Position numbers and translations under genes: made by a program. A stretch of 42,160 nucleotides of DNA from Sneathiellales bacterium (lineage in GTDB: Bacteria; Pseudomonadota; Alphaproteobacteria; Minwuiales; Minwuiaceae): NCBI GenBank assembly GCA_026992315.1, contig JALXAG010000215.1, positions 1 to 42,160 on the forward strand, written 5' to 3'. The number at the start of each line of letters is the position of its first letter. Within the stretch, counting starts at the first letter, position 1. This document shows positions 9,099 through 26,343 of the stretch, piece by piece. The notes beneath the pieces were generated by a model. It worked only from the letters and a program-made list of their open reading frames with translations, made no database searches and had not been told where the DNA came from.

Positions 9099-9671
9099 AT
9101 GGAGAGGGAAAACCCCGAATACGGCGATATCCCCGCCCCGTTCGTTCATCTGGCGGCATTCTGCCGGCGGGTGCCGTGGTTCTCTGCCACCGGAAAGGGG
9201 CTGAACGACGAGGAACGGGCGGCGGCGCAGGCCCTGCTCGATGGCATGGGCTTTCCCGATGCAGCCATCGTTCCGGTGCCGGATTGGCAGGAGGCTGCCG
9301 AAATTGCCGCCAATCCCGACTGGAACACCGACTGGTGGGAGGCGGAGGAACAGCGGCGCATCGCCCTGGCCGGAGAGGCCGCGCGACTGATCGGGGATGA
9401 GGAGATCCTGCTGGCCGGGCTCAATCTGGTCAGCGGTGTGGCCGGCGAGGCGGCCTACGGGCGGATCGAGGGGCTGCTCGATGCCGAGGGGACGAACGAT
9501 CCCGCCCTGCTGCGCGCTGCCGCCGGTGCCGCGGCCCAGGCAGCCTATCATGCGGCGCTGATGATGGTGTGCGAGACGGAAGAGGATCATCCCTTTTACC
9601 GCAGGTTCCGCCTCTTCGAGCTCGGCCGCTGGCCCCTCGGGGTCGTCGGCCGCTCCCTGTCGCTGTTCTGA
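9099..9671 (+). CDS. Uncharacterised protein (190 aa)
   Basis: Intact ORF divergent from marR, no family recognised; contains NPDWNTDWWEAEEQRR. Confidence 0.65.
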   Translation: MERENPEYGDIPAPFVHLAAFCRRVPWFSATGKGLNDEERAAAQALLDGMGFPDAAIVPVPDWQEAAEIAANPDWNTDWWEAEEQRRIALAGEAARLIGDEEILLAGLNLVSGVAGEAAYGRIEGLLDAEGTNDPALLRAAAGAAAQAAYHAALMMVCETEEDHPFYRRFRLFELGRWPLGVVGRSLSLF

Positions 9672-10517: not shown

Positions 10518-10598
10518 AGCGCCTGTCAGGGCGAAGTCTGCTATGCTTGCCGCTGCAGCCTGTTGTCAGGCCGGCGGATGCAACGAAGGTGAGGCACG

Positions 10599-11561
10599 AT
10601 GATCGATCTTTACCCCTTTTCCGGTTTCACCGTTGCGGTGTTGGGCCTGAACGATGAAGGCCGCACCGCCGCCACCGCCCTGCGCCTGAGCGGCGCCACG
10701 GTCTGGGCCTGGGACGATGACGAGGGGCGCAGAAAGGCCGCGGCGGCAGAGGGTATCCCCCTTAAAAATCTATATGAATGCGATTGGCGCGAGCCGGTGT
10801 CCCTGGTGATCGAGGCGGCAATTGCCCATGAGGGCAAGGATGCGCATCCGATCGTTGCGCTGGCCCGTCAGGCGGGGGCGGAGGTGATCGGCGATGCCGA
10901 GCTTCTGATCCGTGCCCAGCGCGATGCCGCCTATATCGGCATTTCGGGGCATCATGCGCCGGCGACCGTCGCCCTTCTGGCCTATATCCTGCAACTGTCG
11001 GGGCAGGAATGCGAATGGACGGGCGGCCCCGCCCCGGCGGACGGGCGCCCGCGCACGGCCCTGTCGCTGCATCCGCTGGATCTCGGCGGTACCTACATTC
11101 TGGACATGCCCGCATCCAAGCTGGATATCACCTTTTCCATTACCTTCGATGTCGCTGTCTATGCGGGCGGCGGGGGAGGGGGCGAAAAACTGAAGATGCT
11201 GTTCCACCGCCAGACCGATCCGCGCAGCGCCGTCGTCTTCGCCGACGACGATGCGGGCACGGCCCTGCTGGCCCATTTGCGCGCAGCGGGCGATCAGATC
11301 ATCGTTCCCGTGTCCCTCCGCCAGGCGGCGGAAGGCGGTGTTTATCTTAAGAACGACTGGCTGATCGACGATCGCGAAGGCAAGCGCATCGAGGTGATCG
11401 ATCTTGGCGTCAGCGGCCGCTACGATGCCCCGGGGCGCCGCGAGGCCGCCCTTCTGGCCTATGCTGCCGCCACCGCGCACGGCATTGCCCCGCCCGCGGT
11501 CATGGCCTGTCTGAACAGCTATGACTTTTCCGCCCCCGACCGCGGCCGCCTGCAGGCATGA
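10599..11561 (+). CDS. Degenerate MurD-like protein (UDP-MurNAc-Ala-D-Glu ligase paralogue without ATPase motif and without C-terminal domain)
   Basis: N-terminal MurD Rossmann (MIDLYPFSGFTVAVLGLNDEGRTAATALRLSGATVWAWDDDE), YIGISGHHAPATVALLAYILQLSG at the position of GITGTNGKSTTTAL, LDLGGTYILDMPASKLDITFSITFDVAV aligned with the MurD central domain; ends at 320 aa. Confidence 0.75.
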   Translation: MIDLYPFSGFTVAVLGLNDEGRTAATALRLSGATVWAWDDDEGRRKAAAAEGIPLKNLYECDWREPVSLVIEAAIAHEGKDAHPIVALARQAGAEVIGDAELLIRAQRDAAYIGISGHHAPATVALLAYILQLSGQECEWTGGPAPADGRPRTALSLHPLDLGGTYILDMPASKLDITFSITFDVAVYAGGGGGGEKLKMLFHRQTDPRSAVVFADDDAGTALLAHLRAAGDQIIVPVSLRQAAEGGVYLKNDWLIDDREGKRIEVIDLGVSGRYDAPGRREAALLAYAAATAHGIAPPAVMACLNSYDFSAPDRGRLQA

Positions 11562-19582: not shown

Positions 19583-20254
19583 ATGCTGAAGAAAATGAAC
19601 ACAGCACTCATGGCTCTTACCCTGGTAATGGGGGTTGGGCTGGCGGCGCAGTCGCAGGCTGCGACCTATACGATCGATTTCGACACGCTTCCCGGCGGCG
19701 GTGCCCTGGCTGACGGTTCGGTGCTGAGCGATCAGTATTCGGCCTGGGGGGTGACCTTTTCCGGTTTCGAGAACGGCTCTCCTGTGGAACAGCCTTTGGC
19801 AACAACGGCGTTTTCCTTCGAAAACGGCGGCGCGCCGGTGGCGGGTAACGTACTGGAAAACCGGGATGTCAACAATTCCCGTGCCGATGTGATCCGCATT
19901 GAATTTGCCAGCGGCGTTTCCGGCATCGAGTTCGATTTCATCCCCTTTGGCTCAAGCGGGCCCGACACGCAATTCAAGGCCTATGATGCGGCGGATAATC
20001 TTCTGCTCAGCACCACGGCGGGCGGTCCTGCCGGATCATATATCAATTTCCATTATACGGGGCTGAGCGGCCTGAGCGGCGTTGCCCGCCTCGATATTCT
20101 TCAGCCCAACGATTCCTGGGTCTGGGGACTGGATAATTTCCGCTTTACCAGCAATGCCGGTCCGACCTCGGTGCCGGAGCCGGGGACGCTGGCGCTGCTG
20201 GGCATCGGCCTTGCCGGGCTCGGTGCGCTGCGGCGGCGGAAATCTGCTGCCTGA
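19583..20254 (+). CDS. PEP-CTERM sorting domain-containing protein
   Basis: Signal peptide MLKKMNTALMALTLVMGVGLAAQSQA; C-terminal VPEPGTLALLGIGLAGLGALRRRK. Confidence 0.93.
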   Translation: MLKKMNTALMALTLVMGVGLAAQSQAATYTIDFDTLPGGGALADGSVLSDQYSAWGVTFSGFENGSPVEQPLATTAFSFENGGAPVAGNVLENRDVNNSRADVIRIEFASGVSGIEFDFIPFGSSGPDTQFKAYDAADNLLLSTTAGGPAGSYINFHYTGLSGLSGVARLDILQPNDSWVWGLDNFRFTSNAGPTSVPEPGTLALLGIGLAGLGALRRRKSAA

Positions 20255-20371: not shown

Positions 20372-21109
20372 ATGAAAAACAATATTCTGGCAGGGGTGAT
20401 TGCCGTTCTGTCCTTATGGTTGGGAGGGCAGGCACAGGCGGCCCTTCTTTTCGATCAGAATGTCACACCCGATGTGATCTTCGGTTCCGGCAACAGTAAT
20501 GGCGGCTGGACGGTTGACCGGCGCAATGGCGTCGAAGTGGGGCTGCGGGCGAAGAAGCGTTTCGTCGGCGATGTCAACAGCAACGGCGATGGCACCTACA
20601 GCCACGATGCCGGCCCCTATTCGCCCGGCAGCAGCGTTGCCCTGTGGAATTACGAGATGGCCGTCAATGTCGATTATAACGGGACAAGTTTCTACACATT
20701 GGCCGATACGCAGATCCTGCTTTCCATCGATACCGATGGCGGTGCGGGGGTCAGCTATGTCACCTTTCCGATTTTCGCTTTTGGCGATAACGCCTACGGT
20801 ACCAACAGCACACCCAATGGCGGCGGGACGGTAACGAACAACCCTGCTGTCTATGGCGGGCTGAACGTTGTGCAGAATTCCCAGAATCTCGGTTTCGGGT
20901 CGCCGGCCTTTTTCGATCCTTCCGCCGATGCGGAATGGAATTTCAGGCTGCAGGTCTTCGATGCCGGCGGATCGACATTGCTGGCCGAATCGGAAATTAC
21001 GGTCATAGTCGGCAATGGTGCCACCGCTGTGCCGGAGCCGGGGACGCTGGCGCTTCTCGGTATCGGCCTTGCCGGGCTGGGCGCGCTGCGACGCAGGCGC
21101 CGGTCCTGA
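20372..21109 (+). CDS. PEP-CTERM sorting domain-containing protein
   Basis: Signal peptide MKNNILAGVIAVLSLWLGGQAQA; C-terminal VPEPGTLALLGIGLAGLGALRRRRRS. Confidence 0.93.
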   Translation: MKNNILAGVIAVLSLWLGGQAQAALLFDQNVTPDVIFGSGNSNGGWTVDRRNGVEVGLRAKKRFVGDVNSNGDGTYSHDAGPYSPGSSVALWNYEMAVNVDYNGTSFYTLADTQILLSIDTDGGAGVSYVTFPIFAFGDNAYGTNSTPNGGGTVTNNPAVYGGLNVVQNSQNLGFGSPAFFDPSADAEWNFRLQVFDAGGSTLLAESEITVIVGNGATAVPEPGTLALLGIGLAGLGALRRRRRS

Positions 21110-23296: not shown

Positions 23297-24343
23297 ATGC
23301 CGCAGAAGCCCGTAAAGCTGGTATGCCGCAACATATGGAAACTGTTCGGCGAGGGGGCCGAACGTTTCCTGCATGACCGGCCGGAGCCGCCAGATGCGGC
23401 AGAGATCGAGGCAGCGGGGCTGATCGGCGCCGTGCGCGATGCAACGATCGAAGTGCATGAAGGCGAGATTTTCGTCATCATGGGCCTGAGCGGGTCGGGG
23501 AAATCGACCCTGATCCGCTGCCTGTCGCGCCTGGTCGAACCTACGGCGGGAGAGATCCTGTTCGAAGGGCGCAATCTGCTGGCGGCCAGCGAACGGGAGA
23601 TGATCGAGATCCGCCGCCATAAAATGGGCATGGTCTTTCAGCACTTTGCCCTGCTGCCGCATCTGAGCGTTCTGCAGAATGTTGCCTTCCCGCTGGAGGT
23701 ACAGGGGGTTGACCGTCGCCGGCGTGAGGAGCGGGCGCGGGAGGTGATCCGCCTGGTCGGTCTGCAGGGTCGGGAGGACAATTTCCCCCGTGAACTCTCC
23801 GGCGGCCAGCAGCAGCGTGTCGGCATTGCCCGTTCTCTGGCGGTGGAACCGGAGCTGTGGTTTCTCGATGAGCCGTTTTCGGCGCTCGACCCGCTGATCC
23901 GCCGCGAAATGCAGGATGAATTCCTGCGTTTGCAGAATGTGCTTCGCAAGACCATCGTGTTCATTACCCACGATTTTGACGAGGCAATCCGTCTGGCAGA
24001 CCGGATTGCGATCATGAAGGACGGGGCGGTGATCCAGACGGCAAGCCCCGAAGAACTGGTTCTGGCACCGGTAAACGATTACGTTGCCGAATTCACCAGA
24101 CATATTCCGCGCGCCAAGGTGCTGACCCTGGGGTCGGTCATGGTACCGGGGCCGCCATCGGGCCCGGTCGCGGGTATCCTGGCGGCCGACACGCGGGTGG
24201 AGGCGGCGGCCGACAAGGTGGAAGCGGCCACCCTGCCTTATGGCGTGGCGGATGAGGACGGCAATATCATCGGCACCGTCGACGGGCGGATCATCGTCGA
24301 TGTGCTGATCGGCCGGGAAACGAGGCGGGAGAGCCGCCAATGA
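23297..24343 (+). CDS. proV: Glycine betaine/proline-type ABC transporter ATP-binding protein (ProV-like)
   Basis: IMGLSGSGKSTLIRCLSRLVEPTAGEILFEGRNL, LSGGQQQRVGIARSLAVEPELWFLDEPFSALDPLIRREMQDEFLRL. Confidence 0.92.
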   Translation: MPQKPVKLVCRNIWKLFGEGAERFLHDRPEPPDAAEIEAAGLIGAVRDATIEVHEGEIFVIMGLSGSGKSTLIRCLSRLVEPTAGEILFEGRNLLAASEREMIEIRRHKMGMVFQHFALLPHLSVLQNVAFPLEVQGVDRRRREERAREVIRLVGLQGREDNFPRELSGGQQQRVGIARSLAVEPELWFLDEPFSALDPLIRREMQDEFLRLQNVLRKTIVFITHDFDEAIRLADRIAIMKDGAVIQTASPEELVLAPVNDYVAEFTRHIPRAKVLTLGSVMVPGPPSGPVAGILAADTRVEAAADKVEAATLPYGVADEDGNIIGTVDGRIIVDVLIGRETRRESRQ

Positions 24344-26343
24344 AGAGGGCATTGCATCCGGGCCGCCACGCGAACACCGTGCTGTGGTTGCTGCTGGCGG
24401 CGGTGACGGCATTCCTGTCGCAGTATGGACGCGATATTGCCCGAAGCTTCGATGCCAGATGGCTGCTGAAAGTACCGTTCGCCATGCGGATACCGATGAA
24501 GGCGGAAATCGGCGCCTTCATGAAATGGCTGGTGGATGAGGCGCATTTCGGCCCGGTCACCTTTACCGATCTGACCCGGGCTGTCGCCTGGGCGATCGAT
24601 CAGCCCTATCGTCTGGTCCGAGCCCTGCTGGAAAGCGGGTTTGTGCAGGGCCAGGGCAATGATGCGGTACAGATTCTGCCGCCACTGTCCTGGCTGGCGG
24701 TGGTGTTCGTCGTCATGGCCATAGGGCACTATGTCCGTAGCTGGAAACTGGCGGTTTTTGTCGGGGGATGTTTCCTCTATCTGGCGGTCTTCGGCCAGTG
24801 GGACAGCGCCATGATCACATTGGCTTCGATCGTGATTGCGGTGCCCTTCGGTGTTGTCGGCGGGTTGCTGCTCGGCATCGGCGGTTATCGCTGGCGCTGG
24901 TTCGAACGGTTGCTGGTGCCGGTCCTCGATCTGATGCAGACGGTGCCCATTTTCGCCTATCTGGTGCCGATCCTGTTTCTGTTCGGTTTCGGCCCGGTTT
25001 CGGCGCTGGTCGCCACCGTCATCTACGCGATGCCGCCGATGGTGCGCATCACCATGCTGGCCCTGCGCAGCGTGCCCGATGAAATCCGCGAATTTGGCCG
25101 GATGGTTGGCTGTACGCGCCATCAGATGACATGGCGGGTGCTGATACCATCGGCCGTGCCGATGCTGATGGTCGGGGTCAATCAGGTGATCATGCTGTCG
25201 CTGAACATGGTCATCATCGCTTCCATGATCGGTGCCGGCGGTTTGGGCTATGACGTTCTGACCTCCCTGCGCAGGCTGGATATCGGCGGCGGCCTGGAGG
25301 CCGGCATCGCCATCGTGGTGCTGGCCGTGGCACTGGACCGGCTCAGCCAGGCCTTTGCCGAGCGTTCGTTGCCCTCCCGCCAGCCGGAGAATGCGTCTTT
25401 CCTGCGCCGGTTCCCGCGGATGACAATGTCTGTGGCCGTGATCGCGGGACTGGCCGTGGCGGGGTTGTTCTGGCCTTTCCTGCAGGACTATCCGGCTGGT
25501 GGCGAAATCACCACGGGACCGTTCTGGCAGGATCTGGTGCGGGCGATCAATGTCAATTTCTTCGATCAGCTCGAAGCGGCGAAAACATTCATGCTGCTGT
25601 CCTTCCTGATCCCGGTGAAACGTTTTCTGCTGTCGCTGCCCTGGCCGTGGGTGGTGTTTCTGATCACGCTGGCCGGCTGGCAGCTCGGCCGCTGGAAACT
25701 GGCGCTGCTGTGTTTTCTTCTGTCCATGTTCATCGCTGTCAACGGGCTGTGGGGAAAGGCGATGGTCACCATCTATTTATGCGGGGTTTCGGTGGTGATT
25801 GCCGCGCTGATCGGCATCCCGCTCGGCATTCTGGCGGCAGGGAACGAACGGGCGGGGCGCATCATCGGCGGCTTTATCGATACGCTCCAGACCCTGCCCA
25901 GCTTTGTCTATCTGATACCGGTGGTGATGCTGTTCCGCGTTGGCGACTTCTCGGCGATGATCGCCGTCATCCTCTATGCCCTGGCTCCGGCCGTCCGCTA
26001 CACTGCCCATGGCATCCGTGCCATCGACCCGCAGCTTGTCGAGGCCGGAGTCGTTTCCGGCTGTACCAGGGGACAGTTGCTCGGCCGGATCCGGTTGCCG
26101 CTGGCCCTGCCCGAAATCATGCTCGGCATCAATCAGACGATCATGCTGGCCCTGTCCATGCTGGTGATCACGGCGCTGGTCGGTACCCGCGATCTGGGGC
26201 AGGAAGTTTATATCGCACTGACCAAGGCCGATACGGGCCGCGGCATCGTCGCCGGGGTGTCCGTTGCCTTCATCGCCATCATGGCCGACCGGCTGATTGC
26301 CGCGGCAGCGGCGCGGACACGCCGCCGCCTTGGCCTGGCATGA
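24340..26343 (+). CDS. ProW-type ABC permease, tandem fusion of two permease domains
   Basis: 667 aa with two copies of the BPD_transp_1 EAA region (EIREFGRMVGCTRHQMTWRVLIPSAVPMLMVGVNQVIMLSLNMVIIASMIGAGGLG and LVEAGVVSGCTRGQLLGRIRLPLALPEIMLGINQTIMLALSMLVITALVGTRDLG). Confidence 0.92.
   Translation: MKRALHPGRHANTVLWLLLAAVTAFLSQYGRDIARSFDARWLLKVPFAMRIPMKAEIGAFMKWLVDEAHFGPVTFTDLTRAVAWAIDQPYRLVRALLESGFVQGQGNDAVQILPPLSWLAVVFVVMAIGHYVRSWKLAVFVGGCFLYLAVFGQWDSAMITLASIVIAVPFGVVGGLLLGIGGYRWRWFERLLVPVLDLMQTVPIFAYLVPILFLFGFGPVSALVATVIYAMPPMVRITMLALRSVPDEIREFGRMVGCTRHQMTWRVLIPSAVPMLMVGVNQVIMLSLNMVIIASMIGAGGLGYDVLTSLRRLDIGGGLEAGIAIVVLAVALDRLSQAFAERSLPSRQPENASFLRRFPRMTMSVAVIAGLAVAGLFWPFLQDYPAGGEITTGPFWQDLVRAINVNFFDQLEAAKTFMLLSFLIPVKRFLLSLPWPWVVFLITLAGWQLGRWKLALLCFLLSMFIAVNGLWGKAMVTIYLCGVSVVIAALIGIPLGILAAGNERAGRIIGGFIDTLQTLPSFVYLIPVVMLFRVGDFSAMIAVILYALAPAVRYTAHGIRAIDPQLVEAGVVSGCTRGQLLGRIRLPLALPEIMLGINQTIMLALSMLVITALVGTRDLGQEVYIALTKADTGRGIVAGVSVAFIAIMADRLIAAAAARTRRRLGLA

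Follow-up and report, generated by a model that had tools for sequence, protein, structure and literature searches.

A small, probably repurposed family of MurD-derived pseudoenzymes in Alphaproteobacteria

Results

Gene at positions 10599–11561 and its motifs

The window was the whole stretch of DNA analysed (42,160 nt), and the protein of its open reading frame (ORF) at 10599–11561 was designated the window copy. The frame encoded 320 aa, had no internal stop and started at an ATG with a clear Shine-Dalgarno sequence before it. Around the gene, nothing resembling a promoter or terminator was found. The features of the locus were as follows:

10584..10593, plus strand: Shine-Dalgarno-like sequence GAAGGTGAGG, 5' of the ATG, read directly
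10599..11561, plus strand: probable MurD-derived pseudoenzyme gene, with MurD domains 1 and 2 and without domain 3
10812..10820, plus strand: codons 72–74, Glu-Ala-Ala, where MurD has the SPG loop; Glu72 is invariant in the family
10947..10967, plus strand: codons 117–123, GHHAPAT, where MurD has the P-loop GTNGKST
11103..11123, plus strand: codons 169–175 (DMPASKL region), where MurD has EMSSxQ; Pro171 is invariant and residue 174 is basic
11160..11162, plus strand: point of the 11-residue deletion (DHLDR motif), between V187 and Y188

The MurD-like N-terminal and central segments quoted in the original prediction were present in the uninterrupted frame, and the full length of the window copy was 41–50% identical to domains 1–2 of Rhodospirillales-type MurD. 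The homology indicated by these alignments is far beyond chance. The roles of the motifs were assigned from established MurD enzymology. The P-loop, GGN, ExSSxQ, DHLDRH, the lysine that is carbamylated in MurD and HNxxN were all altered or deleted in the window copy. The alignment bore out the predicted replacement of GTNGKST by GHHAPAT and of GGN by GGP, as well as the loss of domain 3: the C-terminal end corresponded to the domain 2/3 border of MurD, and the domain that carries NDSKAT and the glutamate site was missing. The DHLDRHG region had been described as replaced by AGGGGGGEK; instead, 11 residues (LLNISADHLDR) were deleted in the alignment with MurD L036, after which YAGGGGGGEKLKMLFHRQTDPR of the window copy aligned with YAGMDGYIAAKKMIFHRQTDPR of that MurD.

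Pfam gave no match for the window protein, and the NCBIfam MurD model TIGR01087 gave 38.2 bits, far under its curated cut-off of 211.95. The window copy was like the MurD of this model in the homology and predicted fold of domains 1–2 but did not belong to it by score, P-loop, DHLDRH with the active-site Lys, or domain 3, and it was also unlike MurD in GGN, ExSSxQ and HNxxN. The ORF is a genuine gene for the front two-thirds of MurD with every catalytic part gone.

The gene was located between xth and mtnA, outside a dcw cluster as predicted. Elsewhere in the window, a 190-aa ORF upstream of xth (9099–9671) had no Pfam match, two neighbouring genes (19583–20254 and 20372–21109) both had a PEP-CTERM sorting motif at the end, and a 667-aa choline/betaine-type ABC permease (24340–26343) looked like two fused permease domains.

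Host genome and its genuine MurD

The only atpA of the host genome was in the window, so the window belongs to the host chromosome, and a contaminant or stray contig was ruled out. The host carried a separate MurD on contig C138 (C138:1-940, L001), followed by ftsW, murG and murC in a dcw context, which excluded a host without another murD. The contig end truncated this MurD at about residue 128; its first ~127 residues fell in an assembly gap, and all motifs of the visible part were intact. Among alphaproteobacterial MurDs, the fragment had a long branch (1.13). It was hardly similar to the window protein (E 0.06), and the lack of a significant match together with differing tree positions ruled out recent duplication of the host MurD as the source of the window copy.

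Members and distribution of the family

When the window protein was searched against the class, most matches were true MurDs, but some had short frames. One short match (G206) was left out because it was a true MurD truncated at the end of its contig. Individual reading of the short-frame matches revealed a second kind of protein, comprising G364 (317 aa), G201 and G293, and a profile of these led to G401 and G406, from the same genus as G364. The five relatives, which had the same architecture, came from two other families (G364/G401/G406 and G201/G293). All six proteins lacked every catalytic motif, none contained GKS/T, and their end points differed by no more than a few residues. The DHLDRH stretch and the active-site Lys of domain 2 were deleted or replaced in 6/6. 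S8, L30, V67, E72 and P171 were invariant in all six but seldom or never seen in MurD (E72 occurred in 0/37 MurDs compared), and position 174, which is Gln in MurD, was Lys or Arg throughout.

A six-member profile gave E ≤1e-141 for the family and ≥1e-99 for true MurDs; by this measure, the dead family and true MurD are cleanly separate. No further members were found in three overlapping class-wide draws of 384–388 genomes. By species, the gene was present in 3/11 of one genus, in 2/2 of another and in 1/9 of the window host's order, where the window genome was alone and no nearer orthologue was found. The family is rare. An intact MurD in the dcw cluster was present in every host (cut by the contig end in the window host), which speaks against the absence of another murD that the original prediction had named as a refutation. 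Membership of an already known family was ruled out by the Pfam and NCBIfam results. The window copy is likely to be one member of a small family of MurD-derived pseudoenzymes that has no name in the libraries searched.

Genomic context

In 5/6 genomes, from two genera, the dead gene adjoined fdhA–fdh3B–cytochrome b and a gene for a WD40-cytochrome c protein. In the G364/G401/G406 genus, it came immediately downstream of DUF6352, the gaps being about 28–160 bases. These arrangements raise the possibility that the protein belongs to a respiratory module of formate dehydrogenase, WD40-cytochrome c and DUF6352, as an accessory component or a sensor. Against this, the window gene lay elsewhere, although its host has DUF6505, DUF6352 and the fdh genes on another contig; G201 and G293 had the neighbourhood without DUF6352; and the context was common to only two independent lineages. 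The link of the family to the formate-dehydrogenase neighbourhood is suggestive and not more, and the role itself is tentative.

DUF6352 and DUF6505 occurred together beside formate dehydrogenase genes in the window host (L113:8047-10858, G000:C247) and in the G364/G401/G406 genus (L069:5489-8399). The WD40-cytochrome c gene beside the pseudoenzyme of G364 (L052:8835-9488) had ~160 propeller residues fewer than those of G401 and G406. Nothing relevant on DUF6352 was found in the open-licence literature, to which the search was confined.

Predicted structure and ligand sites

The AlphaFold model of the window protein, calculated from an alignment with six MurDs, had a pLDDT of 86.5 and a pTM of 0.86. 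Confidence was lower in blocks around 141–150 and 191–200 and in the tail. The best PDB matches of the model were MurD crystal structures (3lk7 at the top, TM 0.74), an agreement that was partly expected as the other alignment rows were MurDs. With this reservation, the model, a check suggested in the original prediction, is a confident prediction of the MurD domain 1–2 fold.

In MurD, the SPG loop holds the phosphates of UDP-MurNAc-L-Ala (UMA). The Ser of this loop was Glu in all six family members, and the Asn of GGN and the Ser/Gln of ExSSxQ were gone. UMA binding by the family is unlikely because SPG has given way to an invariant Glu and both GGN and SSxQ are lost; the suggestion that the protein binds UMA was thus disfavoured. 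Moreover, the alignments show that the sites for ATP, metal and glutamate are gone, which would exclude MurD chemistry for the family.

These changes bear on whether the protein directly controls peptidoglycan synthesis, either as a prozyme-like partner of the real MurD or of some other Mur protein, or by binding UMA. Such a role would agree with descent from MurD. Inactive paralogues often regulate active relatives (for example PMC5201418), and a bound protein, MigC, can inhibit MurD in Acinetobacter (PMC12208494). However, the UMA contacts were lost, the gene was not near dcw genes, and the family derived from another MurD clade than the hosts' own MurD. This role is consequently rather doubtful.

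Origin of the family

In a maximum-likelihood tree, the six dead proteins formed one clade with a support of 100/99. The support was still 100/99 when the active-site columns were masked. In that tree, the clade branched from within the Rhodospirillales-type MurDs (L036, L037, L039) and apart from the MurDs that G201, G293, G364, G401 and G406 carry in their dcw clusters. The masked tree left out the MurD fragment of the window host, which in the first tree was also placed elsewhere than the clade. In AU tests, a scenario in which the window copy arose separately was not rejected (p 0.12–0.29), and for this reason a single origin is favoured by the trees and not proven.

Similar MurD copies could also have been truncated twice, in the window lineage and independently in that of the other five, and have converged on the same shape. 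Besides the AU tests, the window copy was equally similar to MurD L036 and to its five relatives, as such convergence would allow. The clade nevertheless persisted with the motif columns masked, the end point was shared by all six to within a few residues, and five family-specific invariant residues were shared, of which S8, L30 and V67 lie outside the known catalytic motifs. Convergence is accordingly unlikely.

Selection

Close orthologues of one genus had dN/dS values (NG86) of 0.096, 0.117 and 0.111, and those of the other genus 0.106; the true MurD of the same species had 0.17, 0.165 and 0.20 in the first genus and 0.06 in the other. These ratios are approximate, with dS >1. In one genus, the dead protein is under tighter constraint than the living enzyme. 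Five orthologues with dN/dS of 0.10–0.12 in close pairs, not near 1, agreed with the original prediction of a gene under selection, and simple decay of the family was ruled out by these values.

The window copy had no close orthologue, and selection on it rests on codon-position asymmetry. Its own branch had changed at 21%, 15% and 48% of codon positions 1, 2 and 3, respectively, among sites conserved in the others (p = 1e-4), and the G201 member had the same pattern. Furthermore, a stop-free frame survived neutral drift at 0.5 hits per site in 0.6% of simulations.

The window copy might be decaying even with the rest of the family functional. It had no close orthologue in the host's order, it was the longest branch in the family, and it alone carried the 11-residue deletion and a glycine run. 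The intact frame, the Shine-Dalgarno sequence and the codon-position pattern argue against decay, which is unlikely because dN/dS is 0.10–0.12 in the close pairs and the window branch is constrained by codon position; we regard it as improbable. An enzyme of another kind, binding a dinucleotide via the Rossmann fold of domain 1, is still more improbable: domain 1 had weak profile matches to Rossmann proteins that bind NAD(P), but both fold and loop already exist in MurD domain 1, so such matches are expected, the loop of the window copy is GLNDEG, and no new catalytic residue pattern was seen.

Discussion

Few enzymes targeted by antibiotics are as conserved, or have been studied as much, as the Mur ligases. 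The window copy is an enzyme homologue that has lost its catalytic residues, under purifying selection across species (by codon-position asymmetry on the window branch), as is expected of a pseudoenzyme. It is probably a repurposed MurD-derived protein, kept by purifying selection and acting as an adaptor or regulator by binding; the orthologues, the dN/dS of 0.10–0.12, the separate MurD of the hosts and the predicted fold all speak for the repurposing over decay that was originally proposed. A copy of a Rhodospirillales-type murD would have been stripped of domain 3 and of every residue that binds ATP, Mg or substrate, and would have become fixed outside the dcw cluster. Purifying selection would then maintain the two folded domains as a protein whose function is binding, not catalysis. 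We infer that it may be an adaptor or regulatory subunit acting via the surface of domains 1–2, with the old active-site cleft rebuilt around the conserved Glu72, Pro171 and Lys/Arg174. On the sequence evidence, a non-catalytic adaptor or regulator is the most probable role. The two best candidates for its partner would be a protein of the Mur pathway and the formate-dehydrogenase-linked module that adjoins the gene in 5/6 genomes. The position of the window copy outside the neighbourhood common to the other five was counted against the explanation as a repurposed pseudoenzyme.

Besides MurD itself, two known systems resemble the family. The nearest parallel, by analogy, is the plant MurE-like PAP11 of the plastid RNA polymerase complex, a relative of the Mur ligases that has been linked to a job outside cell-wall synthesis (PMC4080259). 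Unlike the window copy, PAP11 is derived from MurE and acts in plastid transcription, in another lineage and with another partner. The prozyme of trypanosome S-adenosylmethionine decarboxylase is likewise an inactive enzyme copy kept by selection beside an active one (PMC5201418); in contrast to it, the dead MurD family lacks a whole domain as well. No bacterial MurD pseudoenzyme was found in the open-licence papers searched.

In the papers and family libraries searched, no bacterial Mur ligase had been described that lacks the ATPase site and the third domain and is yet maintained by selection. A non-catalytic role of the Mur fold can be tested in the species that carry the family, and annotation pipelines are likely to leave it nameless or to miscall it MurD. 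More speculatively, these two-domain Mur pseudoenzymes of Alphaproteobacteria may form an ancient family with a single origin that left cell-wall synthesis; it would then have a structural or sensing function in a respiratory (formate dehydrogenase/WD40-cytochrome) module, or might link that module to peptidoglycan synthesis.
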